Positions 9,499-62,657 of a DNA stretch of 64,000 nucleotides are shown one piece after another. The stretch covers positions 1 through 64,000 of the forward strand of contig JAOZIA010000022.1 in NCBI GenBank assembly GCA_026014585.1, written 5' to 3'. The position numbers were made by a program, and so were the translations under genes. Position 1 is the first letter of the stretch, and the number at the start of each line of letters is the position of its first letter. This DNA comes from Candidatus Bathyarchaeota archaeon (lineage in GTDB: Archaea > Thermoproteota > Bathyarchaeia > Bathyarchaeales > Bathycorpusculaceae). The notes below the pieces were generated by a model that was given only the letters and a program-made list of their open reading frames with translations, was not told the origin of the DNA and ran no database searches.

Positions 9499-10917
9499 TT
9501 AAACATCAATTTGGGCTTCAATTCTGCCAGAGGAAATTGCATCCAAAAGAGCATCAAAATCCTTTGCAACCTGATCTGCATAATCAGCAGCAAACTCAGC
9601 TATAGCACTATCAAAAGATGAACCCTTACTAAGATACCCTGCAATCATTGCAACTCCACTTGTTCTTGCATGCGCTCGCGCTAAGCAATGAGCACAAGTC
9701 ATGGAGTATATGATAAAACTTTTCAAATTCAAAAGTGATACATCAATAGATCCTTTCATGTCCTTTAGTTGACGCCAATAATAATCCCGAGTAGATGCAG
9801 AATTATGGCTCCAACCTAGAAAAATATCATTTGATGCTTGCATCAATTTTTGCCCAATTACCACACGTTGTGCTTGACTAAGGAATTTTCTATGAGGCAA
9901 ATAACGCTCTAGCGCTGAAGGACCCGTTTCTTTTTGTTGGAGAATTATCATATTATCGCTAGTTCCTCCTCTTAAAAGCATAACCGTACAGCGCGTTCCA
10001 ACACTACCCACTCCGACAACTCTTAAAGCTAAATCAACAATTTTGAAACGATTCAATAGTACACGCCGATATTTTGGCAAACTATTAATGTATTCTAACC
10101 AAACTTTTTCAACAGTCTCTTTTGTTAATTTTCTCTTTTCAACAGCGTTGACTACCTTGCTTGATAGAATTTCAGTAAATGGAATCATCAAAGGCGGATC
10201 GCTGACAAAACGACGCCCATTATCTACTTTTTGCGTGAGTTTCTCAAGGGTTTGTTCTTGAGTTCTTAAACGGGCATGCTTGAATGCTTTGTCAGCAACC
10301 ATAGCGCCCTTTTTTGATCGATTAAAGACTTTCAATACCTTGGCTTCATTTACATGGTAATACCACATATCCAAAGTGGACATTTTTGTAAATTCAAGAA
10401 GCGTTTTACGATAAGCTTTAACGACAAGTTTTGCTGCCTTGTAGTTATCGCTATCACGAAATAACTTTTCTCGACCTGCAACTACTACACTAGTTACTAG
10501 ACGTTTTAGATCCCACTCCCATGGACCAGGATAGCACTCATCAAAATCGTTAACGTCAAAAACTAATTGACGTTCTGGTGTCGCAAAAATGCCAAAATTG
10601 TTTATGTGAGCATCTCCACAAAGCATTGTTTCTATTCCGCTAATCGGTGTATTGGCTAAATCAGACGCCATAATCACAGCGGATCCTCTTAAAAATGCAA
10701 ATGGAGATTTTGACATGCGTCCATACTTAATCGGCAATAACTCTTGGATGCGACCCTTGTCTTGTTCTAAAAGCAGACCAATAGGATCAACCCGATTTTT
10801 TGATGGTTTCCAACCACGGTGACTACCGAAAGGTACCTTGTACTGTAAGGCTTTCCCTTGTTGAAAACGAATTTCTCTGCCCGAAACTTCATCTAACATG
10901 GATATAGATTTTGTCAT
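9499..10917 (-). CDS. DUF2252 family protein (COG4320)
   Basis: 472 residues, full length for the family. The diagnostic motifs are present in order: RMSKSPFAFLRGSA near residue 67, LCGDAHINNFG near 98, FDVNDFDECYPGPWEWDLKRL near 119, and the C-terminal TCAHCLARAHARTSG. DUF2252 proteins have a kinase-like (APH-type) fold with a GDxHxxN catalytic-loop motif and a DFD-like metal motif, so a phosphotransferase activity is plausible although the substrate is not known. It stands alone with AT-rich flanks and may be a laterally acquired gene, as the family is commoner in bacteria. Confidence 0.85.
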   Translation of the reverse strand: MTKSISMLDEVSGREIRFQQGKALQYKVPFGSHRGWKPSKNRVDPIGLLLEQDKGRIQELLPIKYGRMSKSPFAFLRGSAVIMASDLANTPISGIETMLCGDAHINNFGIFATPERQLVFDVNDFDECYPGPWEWDLKRLVTSVVVAGREKLFRDSDNYKAAKLVVKAYRKTLLEFTKMSTLDMWYYHVNEAKVLKVFNRSKKGAMVADKAFKHARLRTQEQTLEKLTQKVDNGRRFVSDPPLMIPFTEILSSKVVNAVEKRKLTKETVEKVWLEYINSLPKYRRVLLNRFKIVDLALRVVGVGSVGTRCTVMLLRGGTSDNMIILQQKETGPSALERYLPHRKFLSQAQRVVIGQKLMQASNDIFLGWSHNSASTRDYYWRQLKDMKGSIDVSLLNLKSFIIYSMTCAHCLARAHARTSGVAMIAGYLSKGSSFDSAIAEFAADYADQVAKDFDALLDAISSGRIEAQIDV

Positions 10918-50539: not shown

Positions 50540-50957
50540 AACAGGCAAAACTTGGATGGCTGTTGGAGAAACCGACGACCCAAACGCAATCATAGAATCC
50601 TATGAAGCCGCAGCACCAATCACCAAAGGCGCACCCGTCTACCTAAGCGACGACGACGTGGTCTCACCCAGCCCAGGCGGAGACGAAGCCATAGGCATAG
50701 CAACCAAAACCGTAACCACAGGCGAAATGTGCCCCGTCCTAAAGCGTGGCAGAGTCAAAGTCACAGCCAATGGACCAATAACAAGGGGCAAAGGCGTATG
50801 CAGCGCAGCAGCAAACAAAGTCTCCCAACTCGTGGACCAAGCAGTCGACGAGAATGGTTCAGCAACCTACACGATATTCTACAACCGCAAACTCGGAACC
50901 GCCCTTGAATCCGCAACCATAGACGGCGACCTAATCTTCATAGACTTGGAGAAGTGA
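50529..50957 (+). CDS. Capsid decoration protein, DUF2190-like
   Basis: 142 residues, all beta, with GKTWMAVGET, AAAPITKGAPVYLSDDDVVSP, and AIGIATKTVTTGE, a typical DUF2190 capsid-cement pattern. It probably binds the outside or lattice of the capsid next to the HK97 coat protein. Encoded immediately before the major capsid gene; the stop overlaps its GTG start (GTGA). Confidence 0.75.
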   Translation: MADKTGKTWMAVGETDDPNAIIESYEAAAPITKGAPVYLSDDDVVSPSPGGDEAIGIATKTVTTGEMCPVLKRGRVKVTANGPITRGKGVCSAAANKVSQLVDQAVDENGSATYTIFYNRKLGTALESATIDGDLIFIDLEK

Positions 50958-51916
50958 CCAACTTGAAACCTAGACTTTTTGAAGCACTGATGGCAAAGCC
51001 AAGCGACCAGCGGGAAGTCTATGAGAAGATAAAGCAGAAAACTGAGCATCCGTTCCTGAAGCGTTATGTTCAAATGGGCATAAAGGAAGGTCTCTTTAGC
51101 GACATGACGGGTGCCCTTGGCAGAATGCACGATACCCTTGTGCAGGCAGCATACCCCGAGCTCATAGGCAGAAACATAATCACCGTAAGACCAACTTCTG
51201 AAACCATGGAGCGTTTTCCACTTGATTCTGACGCCGTTGCTTACCGCTACTCTGAAGGCTCCGTGACAAGGCTAAGCGGCAAAAAGAACACCCTCGTAGA
51301 CATCTATACCAACGTGCTCTCTGAATCCTCGGAGGAGTGGACGCGGGAGTTTCTTGAAGATGCTACATGGAACGTCATGGACAGCATGGTGGAAAAAGTT
51401 GGCAGAGCGTTGGGCATACAAGAAACCGAGGACATAATTGCGCTGTATGGGGCAATTGACAACGGGGATTTGGCTGGCGGCGGCGTGATTGATGGCGGCA
51501 ATGCCGTGCTTAGCTGGGCTGGTTTGCTCAAGTTGCATGATGCTGTTAGGGGCGAGAATTGGCGTCCCACGGTGTTAGCAGTTAGCGAGACGCAACTGCA
51601 TCAGTTGCTTAATGATGACAAGTTTGTTCATGCACAGTATTTGCCAAGCAGTGAAACCGACATCGAACAGGGCAGCATAGGAAGCGTCCTTGGCATGCGG
51701 GTACAAGCCAGCACGTTAGTTCCTAACGGAATAGCCTACGCGATTGATACGCGAGTGGCGTCTGCAATGCTTCTGCGGCGAGACATAACCGTTGAGGATT
51801 GGGAAGACATCAAAACGGGCAAGTACGGCGTGCGTGCAACCACCCGATTTGGCGCAGGCATCTTACGCTCCACAGCAGTTTCCAAAATGACCAGCATCAA
51901 AACCACACTGACATAG
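50954..51916 (+). CDS. Major capsid protein, HK97 fold
   Basis: 320 residues. The N-terminal helical segment (residues 1-60) is a delta/scaffold-like region. The N-arm, E-loop, P-domain and A-domain pattern follows: ERFPLDSDAVAYRY, REFLEDATWNVMDSMVEKVGRALG, VLSWAGLLKLHDAVR, VLAVSETQLHQLL, and the C-terminal YGVRATTRFGAG. This matches archaeal and bacterial HK97-type coat proteins. Protease and decoration genes precede it. Confidence 0.85.
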   Translation: MTNLKPRLFEALMAKPSDQREVYEKIKQKTEHPFLKRYVQMGIKEGLFSDMTGALGRMHDTLVQAAYPELIGRNIITVRPTSETMERFPLDSDAVAYRYSEGSVTRLSGKKNTLVDIYTNVLSESSEEWTREFLEDATWNVMDSMVEKVGRALGIQETEDIIALYGAIDNGDLAGGGVIDGGNAVLSWAGLLKLHDAVRGENWRPTVLAVSETQLHQLLNDDKFVHAQYLPSSETDIEQGSIGSVLGMRVQASTLVPNGIAYAIDTRVASAMLLRRDITVEDWEDIKTGKYGVRATTRFGAGILRSTAVSKMTSIKTTLT

Positions 51917-51986
51917 GCGCAGTCAACAATGATGCAAACAAGTTTCCTCTTTTCTTTGGCTTAAAAACTTTGAGGCGATGGTTGCC

Positions 51987-53237
51987 ATGAGTGGAGTTAT
52001 TAGAAAAATTCGTGAAGTGCTCTCCTATGCGCCCGCTTCAGGCGTAGCATCACCAAACGGCAGAATATTCTTTGACACTTCATGCATTCCATTAGCGGAA
52101 GTTATGAAGCTCTATGACCGAGACCCAACCTGCAAAAGCAGCGTGGATTTGCTGGCAGCCTCCGCAGTTGGCATGGGCTTCTACACTACGGTTGATGAGA
52201 AATACGAGAAAGCTTCCCAAGCAAAAGCCGCCGTGGACAGGTTCTGTGAAGACGTTAATTTGGATGGACTTTTAAATGAAATGGCAAAGCCGCTGATTGG
52301 TTGCGGGAACGATTTTTGGCTCAAGCTCCAGCCTGAGAAATTAACTGATGTAATTCGTTTGCCCATTGATGCAGTTGAGCGAATTGGGCTAAGTAGCATT
52401 TCAGACTTGAAAATTCCGTATAAGGTTACAGGTTATCAGCTTAAAAGCACCTATCGAGGCAATGCAGGTGGAGAACTCAAAAGCGAAGCAGTCATCCACT
52501 GGCGCCTTAACAGTGATGTACCTTCTGGCTTTGGCATCGGCTTGCTGCAAGTTCTCCTGCACACCTTAACCGTTGACACTGACAAGCGCCCGTCCTACGC
52601 TTGGATGAAAGCTAAGATAGAGAAGATTTTGCCCAGCATATTCACCAAGTACGCTGGACCAGACGTTGTCGTGCAACTGGAAGGGCAGAAAGAAGACACA
52701 ATCAAAAAGTACGAATCTGCAATTAAAAACCGCCCAGAGGAAGGCCAATGGCTGTTTAGCGGCGCTAAAAATGTAGGCGTCTACCCAGTCACCATTGACC
52801 CACGGGCACGCTTTGAGTATTATATCGACCACATGGTCAACCAATTCTATCTCGGCTGCGAGACGCCTCTGCCACGGCTGTTTAGCACTCCAGGCTTCAC
52901 CGAGGCAAGCGCAAGGGCAGCCTTAGACCTACAAGACATGCTCGTTAAGCCCATCCAGCGTTATGTCAAGCGTCAAGTGGAGCGGGAAATTTTCGCGGTA
53001 GTTGTTGCCCAGTCTGGTTTTGATGCTGGTAAGGCTAAGGTTCGGTTGAATTTTGGCAGCCCCGAAACCCCTGAGCTAAACCCAGCCGACCTCATCAAAG
53101 CCGCTGAACTGGGGCTAATTCGAGCGGAAGAGTTCCGAAAGAATGCGGTCAAGTTTGGCTGGGAACTCTGGGATGCTAAACCCGCAAGCACACCAGAGCA
53201 GGCGGGTGTTCAAGGTAAGGAGGTAAAACAGAAATGA
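51987..53237 (+). CDS. Portal protein
   Basis: 416 residues from ATG 51987, with GAGG nine bases upstream. It has the HK97/SPP1-like portal pattern: MKLYDRDPTCKSSVDLLAASA, VIHWRLNSDVPSGFG, LYPV-like strand YPVTIDPRARF, and the wing-to-stem helix NQFYLGCETPLPRLF with a C-terminal helix. It forms the portal vertex. Unusually it stands after the capsid gene. Confidence 0.85.
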   Translation: MSGVIRKIREVLSYAPASGVASPNGRIFFDTSCIPLAEVMKLYDRDPTCKSSVDLLAASAVGMGFYTTVDEKYEKASQAKAAVDRFCEDVNLDGLLNEMAKPLIGCGNDFWLKLQPEKLTDVIRLPIDAVERIGLSSISDLKIPYKVTGYQLKSTYRGNAGGELKSEAVIHWRLNSDVPSGFGIGLLQVLLHTLTVDTDKRPSYAWMKAKIEKILPSIFTKYAGPDVVVQLEGQKEDTIKKYESAIKNRPEEGQWLFSGAKNVGVYPVTIDPRARFEYYIDHMVNQFYLGCETPLPRLFSTPGFTEASARAALDLQDMLVKPIQRYVKRQVEREIFAVVVAQSGFDAGKAKVRLNFGSPETPELNPADLIKAAELGLIRAEEFRKNAVKFGWELWDAKPASTPEQAGVQGKEVKQK

Positions 53238-53436: not shown

Positions 53437-53787
53437 GTGGGTAGCGTATCAGCGGAAGACATCAGAGACGCCCTCAACCTGAAGGATTCGGACATTTCTG
53501 ATGCTAAAGTTCTAAAGATGATTAAGCGAGCAGAGGTCACTTTAGAGCTTGAACTCTCCGCTGATATCGACTACCAAAACTGCACCGACGCCCAAAAAGA
53601 AGCCATCACACTTTTGGCTTCCATTTACGCTGTTTGCTACTTGACTGGCGGTTCAGCCATCGGGTTAAACTTCAGTGTCGGCGACCTGTCAAGTTCCAAC
53701 TCATCTTTGCCCGCCTTAGCGGTTTTGCAGACAGAATTCGAACGAGTTCTTTCCAGTCTCAAAGAAGTCTACGTGGGGAGCGCTTAG
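53437..53787 (+). CDS. Head-tail connector protein (gp6-like)
   Basis: 116 residues from a GTG start. Helical layout with SAEDIRDALNLKDSDISDAKVLKMIKRAE, a conserved family start of head-tail connectors (gp6/gp15 type) and a C-terminal coil ending in LQTEFERVLSSL. It forms a ring below the portal. Position supports this. Confidence 0.7.
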   Translation: MGSVSAEDIRDALNLKDSDISDAKVLKMIKRAEVTLELELSADIDYQNCTDAQKEAITLLASIYAVCYLTGGSAIGLNFSVGDLSSSNSSLPALAVLQTEFERVLSSLKEVYVGSA

Positions 53788-53789
53788 CC

Positions 53790-55178
53790 ATGGCAACCGT
53801 ACCTGAAACCTACTACCAATTCGTCATGGACTACGCACCCAACGTTTACGTTATCCCGCCAAACACACCTGACCCAGCATTCGGAAAAGGCGTCTTAGCA
53901 GCAAGTTTCGCCATCGACTTTCTCTATGAGGCGTATTCTGCCCCACAATTTGAGGACAGAAAAACAGACATCTACAACAAAATCGTAAGCCTATCCGATT
54001 GGGTTCTAACTCAGCAGTGCGGTGACCCAGCACGTAAGGCTTATGGTGGGTTCCAAAGCAGCGAAACCAGCACATACTACTACAGCGTGGACGCCTGCCG
54101 AGCTATTCCATCTCTGCTCCGAGCCTATGAACTCACAGAGGACAACAGATATTTGGATACCGCAAAGATAGGAGCAACTTTTCTCAAAACTATGCAGGAC
54201 AAGCAGGCCTACGGCGGCTTCGCAAGAGCCGTAACGATTGGTGATGCATGGCTCCTGCAACTGGACGTTGAATGTCTCTATGGTCTAATTGGCTTGAAGA
54301 TGCTCTCTGAAACCTACGACACACCAAACGCATCAGCCTATCAAAGCATCATGGAAAAGTCAACTGGTTTTCTGAGAGCGGGTTTTGAGAATCTTTGGCT
54401 GGATTTTGACCCATTAGACGGCAGATGGCACCGCGTCGGCTTAAGCGAGAACGAGGTCTACGATGACCCATTCGCCTACGCATTGCTGGGTTTGTATGCG
54501 GTTGAGGGCTGGAGTGTTAGCTGCCAAAAAGTCTACAACGCCCTAAACAACATCAGAGCGAACGCAAAGTACCCCGCCTATAACCCTGCGGTATGCTGGG
54601 CAGGCTACATAGATGTGCTCAGCAGGTACTCCGCATGCGACTACTACGATGCAGTCACAAGCGGGATTCTGTGGAGAATCCGCACCAACCATGACAAGCC
54701 AAGCCTAAAACTAAGCGTAGAAATCATCAGCAAACATGCTGAGGAATTCATGTTTTGGGGTGCCAAACACGCCGACTTTAGTTATGTGGAAAATAAGCAG
54801 GCGTTGGTTACGGTTTGCTGGCTAGCTCAACTCTTTCTGCATTATGAGGAACCAGTAACCCAGTTCACGCGGATTTTAAGAAGCAAGGGTGAAACGGTAA
54901 CGCTTTATCCTGTTCGAGAAGCTGTCGCCACGGTGGATTATGGCGAGCCACTGGATTTGTTAGCGGTCGTTTCTTTGCTTAAGGCTGAGCAGGTGATGTT
55001 GGAGGCGGGTTATTACCTCAACGACTACTTGGCGTTTTACACATTCCTTCCTGTCCGAGTGCATGACAAGGTTAGGCGTCAAGGCGAAGATTACGAAATC
55101 CAAACCGTAACGCCCTTCACGTTTGCAAACCAGCGCTTCTACTTCAAAAGTACAGCAAGGAGGCTAATCGCAGGTTGA
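53790..55178 (+). CDS. Alpha/alpha-toroid domain fused to a head-closure (stopper) domain
   Basis: 462 residues from ATG 53790. Residues about 20-385 consist of repeated helix pairs with Gly-rich AYGGF turns (AYGGFQSS, AYGGFARAV) typical of alpha/alpha toroids such as six-hairpin glycosidases, epimerases and terpene cyclases. Residues about 390-462 look like a tail-completion or head-closure domain (VRVHDKVRRQGEDYEIQTV). Its slot between connector and tail terminator is where the stopper lies. The toroid might modify or bind host glycans. A longer in-frame start exists upstream inside the previous gene and is less likely. Confidence 0.6.
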   Translation: MATVPETYYQFVMDYAPNVYVIPPNTPDPAFGKGVLAASFAIDFLYEAYSAPQFEDRKTDIYNKIVSLSDWVLTQQCGDPARKAYGGFQSSETSTYYYSVDACRAIPSLLRAYELTEDNRYLDTAKIGATFLKTMQDKQAYGGFARAVTIGDAWLLQLDVECLYGLIGLKMLSETYDTPNASAYQSIMEKSTGFLRAGFENLWLDFDPLDGRWHRVGLSENEVYDDPFAYALLGLYAVEGWSVSCQKVYNALNNIRANAKYPAYNPAVCWAGYIDVLSRYSACDYYDAVTSGILWRIRTNHDKPSLKLSVEIISKHAEEFMFWGAKHADFSYVENKQALVTVCWLAQLFLHYEEPVTQFTRILRSKGETVTLYPVREAVATVDYGEPLDLLAVVSLLKAEQVMLEAGYYLNDYLAFYTFLPVRVHDKVRRQGEDYEIQTVTPFTFANQRFYFKSTARRLIAG

Positions 55179-56191
55179 GCGAAGCGGAGAACCCAGTAAT
55201 AACAATTCTGCGCCTAATCGAATCTCGGCTAAGAGTAGTCAAAGATGACGGCGGCTTAGCCAATGTGATCTGCTCTCAGGCAAACTATGACCGGGAACTC
55301 CTCAAAGACTACGACGCCCAAATCACAGTTTCCAAAACCAGCGACCCATGCCAACAGCAAAAACATACTTTAGACGGAAAGCTAAGACGGCGCATTTACT
55401 CTCTTCGAGCAACTATAACAACCACGGACAAGCCCGCTTCAAACGCCGACACGGGCAAGGTCATGCGGGATAAAGTCCTTGAGCAACTTTTGTTAATTAT
55501 CCCAGAAAACCGCAACCTACCCTACAGAACCACCTACAACTTTTACCCGCTAGACGCAAGTTCTGTAACTCATAAAGCGTATGATGTAGCAGCCACAAGC
55601 GAACTGGAACCCTCTAATTCTTCATGGGCAAAGTTGCCAAGTGTGGAATACGCGAACCTCTGGGGCAGTGACGACGTTAAGCATTCTAAAAGCGTAAACG
55701 GCAACGGCGAATACCCATTTATGCTTTTCCGCTTCAAAATCGGCTCAAAAGCAGGGGAAATCCGCAATGAAGCCAGAAAACAATGTTTAAAGCGTGTAGT
55801 TTTGGCGTTTGAAGGCTTTGGGACTGCACCACTAGGAAACGGTGTAACCTTCAAGATTTGGGATAATGCGGCTGGTGCTTGGAGCAATCCGATAACTGGT
55901 TCTGAAGGCGCAGATGAGACCCTAACCCTCACATTAACCTCTGACCTTACAAACTACGTCAACAGCGACGGCTTTCTCTACCTGTTAGCAAGAACAACCC
56001 ACCCGTCAGACGGCGTTTCCCTAGCCGTTTTGTACTGCGATTTTGTCCAAGCAACCGTTGACGTGCGAGGCATCACGTTTTGCGATGTTCACAGTTACAG
56101 AGACGTTGACGTGGTCGATGTCAAGCCTTTCCTGTTCAAAGAAGAAATCCAAATCGTGGCATGGCTCTTCGAGTCAGTCGCCATTTCATAG
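55175..56191 (+). CDS. Tail terminator-like protein with beta-sandwich insertion (338 aa)
   Basis: The N-terminal 120 residues (VITILRLIESRL... AQITVSKTSDP) resemble a tail-completion protein, while residues about 130-310 form a beta-rich domain (AFEGFGTAPLGNGVTFKIWD, LTLTLTSDLTNY) like a lectin or CBM-like sandwich, followed by a final strand segment. It overlaps the previous gene by four bases. The joining of a surface-binding domain to a tail-end protein is unusual. Confidence 0.6.
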   Translation: MSEAENPVITILRLIESRLRVVKDDGGLANVICSQANYDRELLKDYDAQITVSKTSDPCQQQKHTLDGKLRRRIYSLRATITTTDKPASNADTGKVMRDKVLEQLLLIIPENRNLPYRTTYNFYPLDASSVTHKAYDVAATSELEPSNSSWAKLPSVEYANLWGSDDVKHSKSVNGNGEYPFMLFRFKIGSKAGEIRNEARKQCLKRVVLAFEGFGTAPLGNGVTFKIWDNAAGAWSNPITGSEGADETLTLTLTSDLTNYVNSDGFLYLLARTTHPSDGVSLAVLYCDFVQATVDVRGITFCDVHSYRDVDVVDVKPFLFKEEIQIVAWLFESVAIS

Positions 56192-56210: not shown

Positions 56211-57074
56211 ATGGTTGACACATACCATAGCGACCAAGAAAAGTTCTACTATGTTACCGAAGGCTCTTTTGGCGTGGTTCCAGCTAGCCCAGCGATGCTT
56301 GGGCACTCCTGTAGCAACCTTGACCCAGACATAAACCCAAACAACATCAAAGTAGCAGGCTCAGGCTCAGTTGACGTGGTCTCCCTAAAACGTGGACTAA
56401 GACAACCACTGCTAAAACTCAAGTACCCAATCCCATCCGACGCACCCATCAACCTCTTACAGTACGTCAAACAAGAACTCAACGCTAGTCTTTCTTTGCA
56501 GGTGCTCTACTACAAAGACATCTTTGTCACAGCCACGGACATCATAAGCTTGCTCTACAAGGGCGCACGCTTCAACAAAGCCACCCTTACATGCGACATA
56601 GACGGCATTTTGGAGTGCGAAGCAGAATTTCCAAGCCAAGACGTTGAGGTTACAACTGCCAAGATTGCAAACGCAAACTACACCGAGTATACAGGCGCAG
56701 TCTCAGGTAGCGAGAGCTACGTGAAAATCGGCGGGGTAGCTTGTGAGCGGATTACTTCTTGGAAACTGCAAATCGATAACTCATGCAAAGCTGTCCCTGT
56801 CATACGGTCAACAAACGGGCACTTAGCCAAGTACCTAACGTGGGGCAAGCGGCTTCTGACTGGGGAGTTGACTTTTGAGTTTGAGAGCAAACAGGAAGCC
56901 GACGAAATCCTAGCCGACACTGAACAAACCAGCTTAGAATTCGGTCTTGGCGGTGCTAACAAGGTTAGTGTTGAGCATACCAAATGGGATGATTTTTCGT
57001 TGAGCGGCAAAGCTGAGGACCTAATCTATGCCAAGGTTACTTTCACGGCTAGAGGACCGCTCAGCATCTTATAG
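56211..57074 (+). CDS. Major tail tube protein
   Basis: 287 residues, beta-rich, with YYVTEGSFGVVPASPAMLG at the start and repeated strands, including VKIGGVACERITSWKLQIDNSC and the C-terminal LIYAKVTFTARGP. Size and position between terminator and chaperone genes match tail tube proteins. It builds the tube around the tape measure. Confidence 0.75.
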   Translation: MVDTYHSDQEKFYYVTEGSFGVVPASPAMLGHSCSNLDPDINPNNIKVAGSGSVDVVSLKRGLRQPLLKLKYPIPSDAPINLLQYVKQELNASLSLQVLYYKDIFVTATDIISLLYKGARFNKATLTCDIDGILECEAEFPSQDVEVTTAKIANANYTEYTGAVSGSESYVKIGGVACERITSWKLQIDNSCKAVPVIRSTNGHLAKYLTWGKRLLTGELTFEFESKQEADEILADTEQTSLEFGLGGANKVSVEHTKWDDFSLSGKAEDLIYAKVTFTARGPLSIL

Positions 57075-60800: not shown

Positions 60801-61255
60801 CCAAAGGCAAACCCTGGCCAGCAGATGACGAAAAGAAACTCAAAGACTGGTACACAATGGGAACCACGGACTTTAGAGTTTTAGCCTTCAGTTTTGACGG
60901 GCGATACACTGAAGAAGCCATACGCCAAAAGCTGATAAAATTCGGTTTACTGAAAGAACAACAACAGCAGAAAAATTCCAATTGTTGTTGTTCTACCCAA
61001 CTTGAACTGCCCGAGGAACTGCCCAGCATCGAAGAGACTCTAAAGATGTTGGCTGCCGCGTTGGAGGCGCTAAAGACGCCTGGATTGGATAAAGCTGAGG
61101 TTTTGCGGCTGCGCGGCATAATCGCAGGCGCTAAAGTGTACCAAGAACGTTTTGCAGAGTATGTTCACTATCGGGAACTGGAAGAGGAATTAATGGAGGC
61201 TCGAAAAAAGATTGCGGAACTTATCAAAAAGTCCCAGAGCAATGCACAAAAATAG
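60797..61255 (+). CDS. Small terminase subunit-like protein (152 aa)
   Basis: N-terminal HTH-like DNA-binding domain (PADDEKKLKDWYTMGTTD... EEAIRQKLIKFG) followed by a Gln/Cys linker, then a long coiled coil (residues about 75-150) for oligomerisation. Encoded immediately before the large terminase gene. An inverted repeat lies inside it. Confidence 0.65.
   Translation: MTKGKPWPADDEKKLKDWYTMGTTDFRVLAFSFDGRYTEEAIRQKLIKFGLLKEQQQQKNSNCCCSTQLELPEELPSIEETLKMLAAALEALKTPGLDKAEVLRLRGIIAGAKVYQERFAEYVHYRELEEELMEARKKIAELIKKSQSNAQK
60956..60993. repeat. Inverted repeat in the small terminase gene, possible pac site
   Basis: GAACAACAAC (60956-60965) is the exact reverse complement of GTTGTTGTTC (60984-60993), with an 18-base loop. 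It gives the odd coding sequence of four Gln and CCC. Packaging sites are often inside or near the small terminase gene. Confidence 0.45.
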
Positions 61256-62657
61256 ACTCTTCGACGAATGGGAAGGACTTCGCCAAGATATGGCTGCTGT
61301 TGAAGAGTTAGGCGAGCGCAAAGTCCAAAGCCTGCAAGGTGATGTTAAGAGTTTTTTTGAGCAAATCTTTGGCTTTTCGCCCTACCAGTATCAGATAGAG
61401 CTTGCGGAGTTGTTTGAGAAGAACCAGTTTTTGGCGGTGCGTTGGCCAAGGCAGACAGGCAAGAGCTTTTCGGTTTCAGCCTTGCTCTTAAAGTATGCTT
61501 GGGAACATCCGAATAGCTACATTGCGATTGTTGGGCCAAGCTGGCGCCAAACCAAACTAAACATCAGGCGGATGGGCGGTTTCTGTCGCAAGCTTCCGCA
61601 GCGGGGATTGCATGTTCAAAAAACCCGCATATCGCTGCCAAACGACAGCATAATTGAAGCCTTCCCAAACAACCCCGACACCATCAGAGGTCCAACGTTC
61701 TCGATAATTTGGTGGGAAGAATGCAACTTCACACCCAACGACGAGGACCTGTACGATGCTATCCTATTTACGCTGGGAACAACCAACGGCAAACTAATTG
61801 CAACTAGCACGCCGTTTAGTACAGATTCGCTGTTTTGGAAAATGTGCAACCATAAAGACTACGCAGACTTTGCCAGACACCACTTCACATGGGACAAAGC
61901 GATTGAACCAAATGGTCCGCTTAAGCCTGCAATTATTGAAAAAATTAAGCGACAATTTGGCGATGACCCTGCCCGTTGGCGTCGGGACATGGAGGCAGAA
62001 TGGGCAGAAGACGAGGACGTTTGGCTTGCTCAAAGCTTAATCGTTGCCTGCGTAGGCACGGTCAAGAACTGTGGCGCAGACTTGCAAGAATACAACCCTG
62101 AAGCTGAATGCGAGGGAGACTTTTTTGCTGGGCTTGATTTGGCGCAAACCCGCGACTACTGTGTCCTATCGGTGGTTGAAAGGCTAAACGATAAGCTGTT
62201 CCTTCGGCACCTGAAGATTTTCCAGCAACCCACTCTATACGCTCAGGTTTTGGGTTATCTGAAGGCGCTGCAGGACAGGTGGGGCGGATTCCAAAAAATC
62301 AGGGTTGACTTCACAAGAGAAGGACCATCCATCATTGCGGACATGGAAACTGCTGGAATAGAGAACGCTGAGGGCGTAAACTTTAGCGTGTCACGAAAGA
62401 GCGAGATGGCTAGCCTGCTTAAGCAGCGCATGATGAATAAGCAGTTTTTCTATCCGCTTCTAAATTGGGAGCGTCCCTATCGTGGCGATATTTGCAGTGA
62501 GCTAAACGTGGAACGCTATGATTTGCGCAAGGATGGAGCCATCGGGTACTCGCATCCAAACGGTACCCATGATGATGTCTTTTGGAGCATGGCCCTAGCT
62601 GTATTTGCGACTGTGCAGATGGAACCAGAACCATTCTTAACAGTAATTCCAAGGTGA
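61242..62657 (+). CDS. terL: Large terminase subunit
   Basis: 471 residues from ATG 61242, which overlaps the previous gene by 14 bases. The Walker A motif RWPRQTGKS, Walker B IIWWEECNF, coupling segment ATSTPF, and a C-terminal RNase H-like nuclease with DLAQTRDY and THDDVFWSMALA are all present. It cuts and pumps DNA into the head. Confidence 0.93.
   Translation: MHKNRLFDEWEGLRQDMAAVEELGERKVQSLQGDVKSFFEQIFGFSPYQYQIELAELFEKNQFLAVRWPRQTGKSFSVSALLLKYAWEHPNSYIAIVGPSWRQTKLNIRRMGGFCRKLPQRGLHVQKTRISLPNDSIIEAFPNNPDTIRGPTFSIIWWEECNFTPNDEDLYDAILFTLGTTNGKLIATSTPFSTDSLFWKMCNHKDYADFARHHFTWDKAIEPNGPLKPAIIEKIKRQFGDDPARWRRDMEAEWAEDEDVWLAQSLIVACVGTVKNCGADLQEYNPEAECEGDFFAGLDLAQTRDYCVLSVVERLNDKLFLRHLKIFQQPTLYAQVLGYLKALQDRWGGFQKIRVDFTREGPSIIADMETAGIENAEGVNFSVSRKSEMASLLKQRMMNKQFFYPLLNWERPYRGDICSELNVERYDLRKDGAIGYSHPNGTHDDVFWSMALAVFATVQMEPEPFLTVIPR

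Follow-up and report, generated by a model that had tools for sequence, protein, structure and literature searches.

The window analysed here (the whole 64,000-nt stretch) corresponds to contig C21 in a genome of 2.3 Mb and carries, on the forward strand, a structural operon in which head genes are followed by an adaptor, a toroid-stopper gene, a tail terminator, a tail tube protein, further tail genes and the large terminase. The toroid-stopper gene (nt 53790–55178, + strand, 462 aa) begins with an ATG (nt 53790) two bases past the adaptor's stop codon, while its own stop codon overlaps the TTG (nt 55175) of the next gene. To its left lie the HK97-type major capsid protein (nt 50954–51916, + strand; phrog_267, E 8e-13), a 419-aa protein in the portal slot (nt 51978–53237, + strand), placed there by size, position and conserved order and matching neither Pfam nor PHROG families, and, directly upstream, the 116-aa head-tail adaptor (nt 53437–53787, + strand), which matches phrog_541 weakly (E 0.06) and precedes the toroid gene in a conserved order. 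The 338-aa protein directly downstream (nt 55175–56191, + strand) is most readily seen as the tail terminator, given its position and the size of forms of the protein that carry no insert. Next come the tail tube protein (nt 56211–57074, + strand; PF18906, E 9e-15) and, further right, the large terminase (nt 61212–62657, + strand; phrog_2, E 1e-36). A second copy of the toroid-stopper gene, 55% identical, is present in the same genome (C23:131426-132829). With one exception, all homologues from named organisms come from metagenome-assembled genomes (MAGs) labelled 'Candidatus Bathyarchaeota' or 'Crenarchaeota', so that the window is taken to be a Bathyarchaeia provirus. The toroid-stopper gene is best explained as encoding the head-closure ring protein of a siphovirus-like Bathyarchaeia provirus.

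The structure of the protein was modelled with AlphaFold2 using a 46-sequence family alignment of viral or proviral homologues that are 48–85% identical to the window protein (pLDDT 94.3, pTM 0.92); a model made from the single sequence (pLDDT 40) was discarded. The model divides into an N-terminal domain of about 358 residues (residues 1–358, nt 53790..54863, + strand; pLDDT 94), in which helical hairpins bear long loops at one end, and a C-terminal domain of about 103 residues (residues 360–462, nt 54867..55178, + strand) that is nearly all beta. A Foldseek search of the PDB with this model gave 152 matches at E<=1e-3. All 50 that were listed are sugar enzymes with an alpha/alpha-toroid fold (GH8, GH76, GH88 and AGE/cellobiose-2-epimerases), with probability 1.00, TM-scores (target) of about 0.5–0.68 and 9–15% identity. 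They include 3ren (E 4e-7, target TM 0.68), glucose-2-epimerase 8h1l, the GH76 structures 4v1s and 4bok, the unsaturated glucuronyl hydrolase 3wiw and GH8 5gy3. The helix list, the loop pattern and the Foldseek probability of 1.00 agree on an (alpha/alpha)6 ring of six hairpins with its long loops at one pole. The initial annotation had proposed a helix-repeat toroid of the glycosidase or cyclase type; a toroid of the glycosidase or epimerase type is borne out by the model and the 50 listed matches, with a genuine ring rather than ordinary helical packing, while the cyclase alternative was dropped, there being no terpene-cyclase structure among those 50. Against viral models, the C-terminal ~110 residues matched head-tail joining or connector proteins and SPP1 head-tail adaptor-type proteins (E 2e-5 to 7e-4), consistent with a beta-barrel closure fold of the gp16/gpFII type and with the proposed fusion of the toroid to a head-closure domain.

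Profile searches agree with the assignment of the C-terminal domain. The family consensus of the closure domain matches phrog_939 ('head protein') at E 6.7e-5, the window domain alone weakly (0.033), and the free stopper of a related virus (L330) at E 1.2e-7; these matches indicate homology to a recognised closure family. For the whole toroid-stopper protein of the window, no curated family scores above its cut-off. The nearest is PF06662 (D-glucuronyl C5-epimerase), at 23.1 bits against a cut-off of 23.3 and over 58 of 188 profile positions, so that the window protein does not qualify as a member, that is, by a score above the curated cut-off over most of the domain. Among its relatives the same profile is borderline (41 of 46 match at E<=0.1, the best at 1.2e-5), and, as regards the catalytic tyrosines of that family, the weak alignment to 4pw2 spans profile positions 87–174 only. 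The toroid is also weakly related to GH88 profiles, and PF03663 (the GH76 Pfam family) matches neither the window protein nor any of 46 relatives. Tested against the PF06662 and GH76 profiles, the toroid could be assigned to no named enzyme family. A tblastn search of 50,697 phage genomes gave no match, and the head-closure profile is too weakly conserved for a scan of the viral collection. A host source enzyme was also sought, and no true C5-epimerase or GH76 orthologue was found in the sampled Bathyarchaeia; apart from the viral gene itself, the candidates above cut-off look like thioredoxin-fold (DUF255-like) proteins. Among host proteins the closest relative is a distant 410-aa toroid in the same genome (L003:1156-2385; G000:C5, about 193.7–194.3 kb), which has GH76, GH127 and pectate-lyase profile matches and adjoins a glycosyltransferase-like gene.

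The gene order around the fusion is strongly conserved. Profiles of the adaptor, toroid, closure domain, terminator and tube co-occur in 241 loci, a count that includes repeat fetches of the same contigs, and their order is fixed wherever it was read; loci without a toroid are mostly truncated by contig ends. In almost every related Bathyarchaeia virus or provirus recovered, the adaptor is followed by the toroid-stopper, the tail terminator and the tail tube, which places the gene in the stopper slot between adaptor and terminator/tube, the neck position that had been proposed for it. Among the closure-domain matches listed from 257 Bathyarchaeia genomes, 44 of 58 lie in fused frames of 464–555 aa and most of the other 14 are truncated or frameshifted. 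Dozens of independent assemblies, spanning many environments and genera, carry the fusion as one uninterrupted frame; the fusion in itself is nearly certain. Almost all close relatives of the toroid are further copies in viruses or proviruses, including a whole-gene homologue (L116, 82% identity, same gene order) on contig JAAKEZ010000002 of BATPV1. The latter is a published Bathyarchaeia tailed provirus, and the main text of that paper describes neither the toroid nor the fusion (PMC11705971). Relatives with the two domains as separate genes, which the initial annotation had named as evidence against its reading, were not found. The sole case with toroid and closure domain in two frames (L281) is read as a frameshift at the linker of an otherwise continuous gene, and a further copy (G058, C10) is read in the same way. 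Partial toroids joined to terminase, tail or other genes (L030, L099, L109, L110 and L113) were rejected as new architectures and regarded as deletion remnants; they are in-frame deletion junctions inside the toroid-stopper gene of degraded proviruses, probably brought to light by search bias because the search was seeded with that gene. A toroid ending after ~244 residues (G134) belongs to a decayed provirus, and two incomplete copies (G139 and G062) run off contig ends.

Two natural variants separate the domains. A virus with the same gene order (L330, genome G156) has a free orthologous stopper of 112 residues, the same tube and a terminator without insert, and no toroid was found anywhere in its genome, which is 99% complete. 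In the tube tree it groups with two toroid-bearing viruses (support 84/88 and 91/93), which suggests that the toroid was lost in this lineage, although most of the tree is unresolved; its gene content shows that the toroid is dispensable in at least one lineage. The converse arrangement is found on a 4.4-kb contig in a MAG labelled Njordarchaeum, a label that could be a binning error. Here the toroid stands alone (L136:482-1819), preceded by a hydrophobic segment that by eye resembles a signal sequence (MLSFAFPIVVVLTSLLILPPLWGG) and ending right after the toroid, with no closure domain. The pole residues described below are kept in this form. Taken together, the toroid-less stopper and the standalone toroid indicate that the toroid is a module added to an ordinary stopper.

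Sequence conservation within the toroid is distributed unevenly. An alignment of 18 members contains 31 invariant polar or aromatic residues, of which 20 fall in the loops before the first helices of the hairpins or in the first six residues of those helices, that is, at one pole, and one falls in the short loops of the opposite pole. In (alpha/alpha)6 toroid enzymes the loop/first-helix pole is the substrate pole. The residues at this pole include D101, R104, W154, W213, R215, D225, D226, Y264, W270, Y273, Y286, D287, W323 and W344. D101 and R104 (nt 54090..54101, + strand) lie at the N-terminus of a first, inner-type helix; W213 and R215 belong to a WHR motif (residues 213–215, nt 54426..54434, + strand) in which H214 is nearly invariant; D225-D226 (nt 54462..54467, + strand) form a YDD motif, located where a first helix begins, that may be called GH76-like by resemblance only; and Y286-D287 correspond to nt 54645..54650 (+ strand). 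D159 and E161 are kept in close relatives and lost in divergent members, which argues against a catalytic role for either. The clustering of acidic, arginine and aromatic residues at the pole would fit a putative sugar site. Of the acidic catalytic residues that the initial annotation wished to see located, there are conserved candidates at this pole, together with aromatic residues, but no enzyme family could be established from them. Across 24 close pairs, dN/dS was 0.095 for the toroid, 0.063 for the closure domain and 0.108 for the adaptor; the same pairs gave 0.082 for the capsid protein, 0.066 for the portal-slot protein, 0.067 for the tube and 0.172 for the insert of the tail terminator. 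Purifying selection on the toroid is therefore strong, at a level like that of the core virion genes.

The insert of the tail terminator comprises ~180 aa (about residues 117–298, nt 55523–56068 of the window) and is precisely absent in 12 of 137 relatives. It evolves faster (dN/dS 0.17), and weak profile matches to GH114_assoc in 5 of 12 and to an F5/F8-type domain in one hint at a putative carbohydrate-binding beta-sandwich. A hypervariable cargo site of ~1–6.6 kb is seen between portal and adaptor in several loci (L009, L010, L067, L075, L079, L126 and L330) and carries genes for putatively secreted proteins; in L330 the cargo, read by eye, comprises NDP-sugar epimerase/dehydratase-like and GT2-like glycosyltransferase genes.

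The closure domain and its position have clear counterparts, since SPP1 gp16/lambda gpFII-type stoppers (PHROG 939) share both the fold of the C-terminal ~103 residues and the slot between adaptor and tail terminator. Ordinary stoppers are, however, only ~100–130 aa long, with at most a helical N-terminal extension, whereas here 358 residues of toroid precede the closure domain. The toroid fold itself is common to the GH8, GH76, GH88, AGE, cellobiose-2-epimerase and glucuronyl C5-epimerase families, which also have acidic and aromatic residues at the N-termini of their first helices; unlike those enzymes, the Bathyarchaeia toroid is fused to a virion neck protein and matches no profile above cut-off. 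Decoration proteins are known at the adaptor-stopper and stopper-terminator junctions of the Staphylococcus phage 812 (PMC12886913), and both systems add mass to the neck, but in phage 812 the decorations are separate small proteins that are not enzyme-like, while the toroid is fused. In roseophage R4C, the N-terminal extension of the stopper contacts the adaptor, and the tail-tip 'megatron' has mannanase-like and carbohydrate-binding domains (PMC10276861), so that sugar-enzyme-like folds occur in a virion structural protein there too, although at the tail tip and not the neck. Decorated necks and sugar-enzyme tail tips are therefore already known, and the toroid-stopper is a decorated stopper. 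A sugar-enzyme toroid fused to a stopper has no precedent that we found in the literature open without subscription, and a paper on Bathyarchaeia viruses (PMC10848311) mentions no toroid, epimerase, glycosidase or neck.

The toroid is best read as a putative glycan-engaging neck domain present in six copies per virion. The C-terminal domain would seal the channel as a hexamer docked between the adaptor dodecamer and the tail terminator, and the N-terminal extension, which reaches the adaptor in ordinary stoppers, would have been enlarged into the 358-residue toroid. Since the toroid is fused to the stopper it should decorate the neck, and since it is carried by the end of the stopper that in R4C contacts the adaptor, six toroids should surround the adaptor-stopper level. 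They would hang outside the neck below the capsid vertex, with the conserved pole exposed, and may bind a polysaccharide or glycan on the surface of the archaeal envelope (or of the virion), and perhaps also hydrolyse or epimerise it. The hexameric display, the exposure and the glycan ligand of the toroids are inferred. As a whole, the reading as a glycan-binding or glycan-processing neck collar that acts on the archaeal envelope is one towards which we lean, with modest confidence. In its favour count, besides the fold and the conserved pole, the standalone toroid with its hydrophobic N-terminal segment and the distant host toroid beside a glycosyltransferase-like gene; against it count the absence of a curated family match above cut-off for the window protein and the viability of the G156 lineage's neck with no toroid.

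The main rival is that the toroid, although exapted from a sugar enzyme, is a bulky, non-catalytic collar clamping both the adaptor-stopper junction and the capsid vertex. That it is joined to an obligate structural protein is in keeping with this, as are the junction-reinforcing neck decorations of phage 812 (PMC12886913), the contact of the stopper extension with the adaptor (PMC10276861) and a rate of evolution about as slow as that of core structural genes. We nevertheless think it unlikely, though to be taken seriously, because the invariant polar and aromatic residues gather at what in toroid enzymes is the sugar-binding pole, the standalone signal-like form retains these residues, and the neck of G156 must work without any toroid. 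It is improbable that the toroid acts instead inside infected cells or while virions assemble, for example by trimming or epimerising glycans of virion proteins, and not at entry: the sugar-related genes of the L330 cargo site, adjacent to the neck, and the UDP-glucose 4-epimerase reported in another provirus of the Bathyarchaeia study (PMC11705971) would suit such a role, but intracellular catalysis needs no covalent fusion to a six-copy neck protein and the free toroid has a signal-like N-terminus. That the fusion arose artificially in gene calling or assembly, or is just a local oddity, as the two frames of L281 might suggest, has a negligible probability and is refuted by its recurrence across dozens of independent assemblies and by purifying selection on both domains.

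Of all parts of tailed virions, the neck proteins are regarded as the most conserved and as purely mechanical. The lineage-wide toroid-stopper fusion, with the optional insert of the terminator, suggests that in archaeal viruses the neck can carry functions directed at the host envelope or glycans, and makes the neck a likely, if putative, site for binding or cutting host sugars; residues 1–358 and the pole residues named above offer a defined protein and positions for testing. Bathyarchaeia are among the most abundant uncultured archaeal classes. More tentatively, and as a possibility rather than an expectation, this lineage of archaeal tailed viruses may carry in the neck a candidate active glycan-processing enzyme, borne on the virion in six copies fused to the head-closure ring and possibly acting together with a carbohydrate-binding insert in the tail terminator next to it; glycans would then be engaged at the neck instead of the tail tip, and the toroid would have been lost from one viral lineage while also occurring on its own, behind a signal-like N-terminus, in an archaeal contig.

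Several minor variants were also seen. In several proviruses (L101:1189-2844, G003:C28, G030:C1:333706-335283 and G060:C26) some 60–70 residues that look beta-rich are inserted near toroid residue 26. One virus (L312) shares the adaptor, capsid and terminase but follows the adaptor with another neck/tail module (L312:6001-12038), within which the gene at 9726-10637 reads like a TIM-barrel glycosidase, with no Pfam match. A distant stopper (L334:5747-6418, G116) has an insert of another kind, fibronectin-III-like in appearance, and this insert, with the toroid fusions, indicates that the stopper position accepts extra domains, of which the toroid is dominant. Another genome (G144) encodes a protein resembling topoisomerase VI subunit B whose C-terminus continues into a head-closure-like domain (L331:4321-6408); this reflects either the insertion of a now decayed provirus in the gene or an exaptation.
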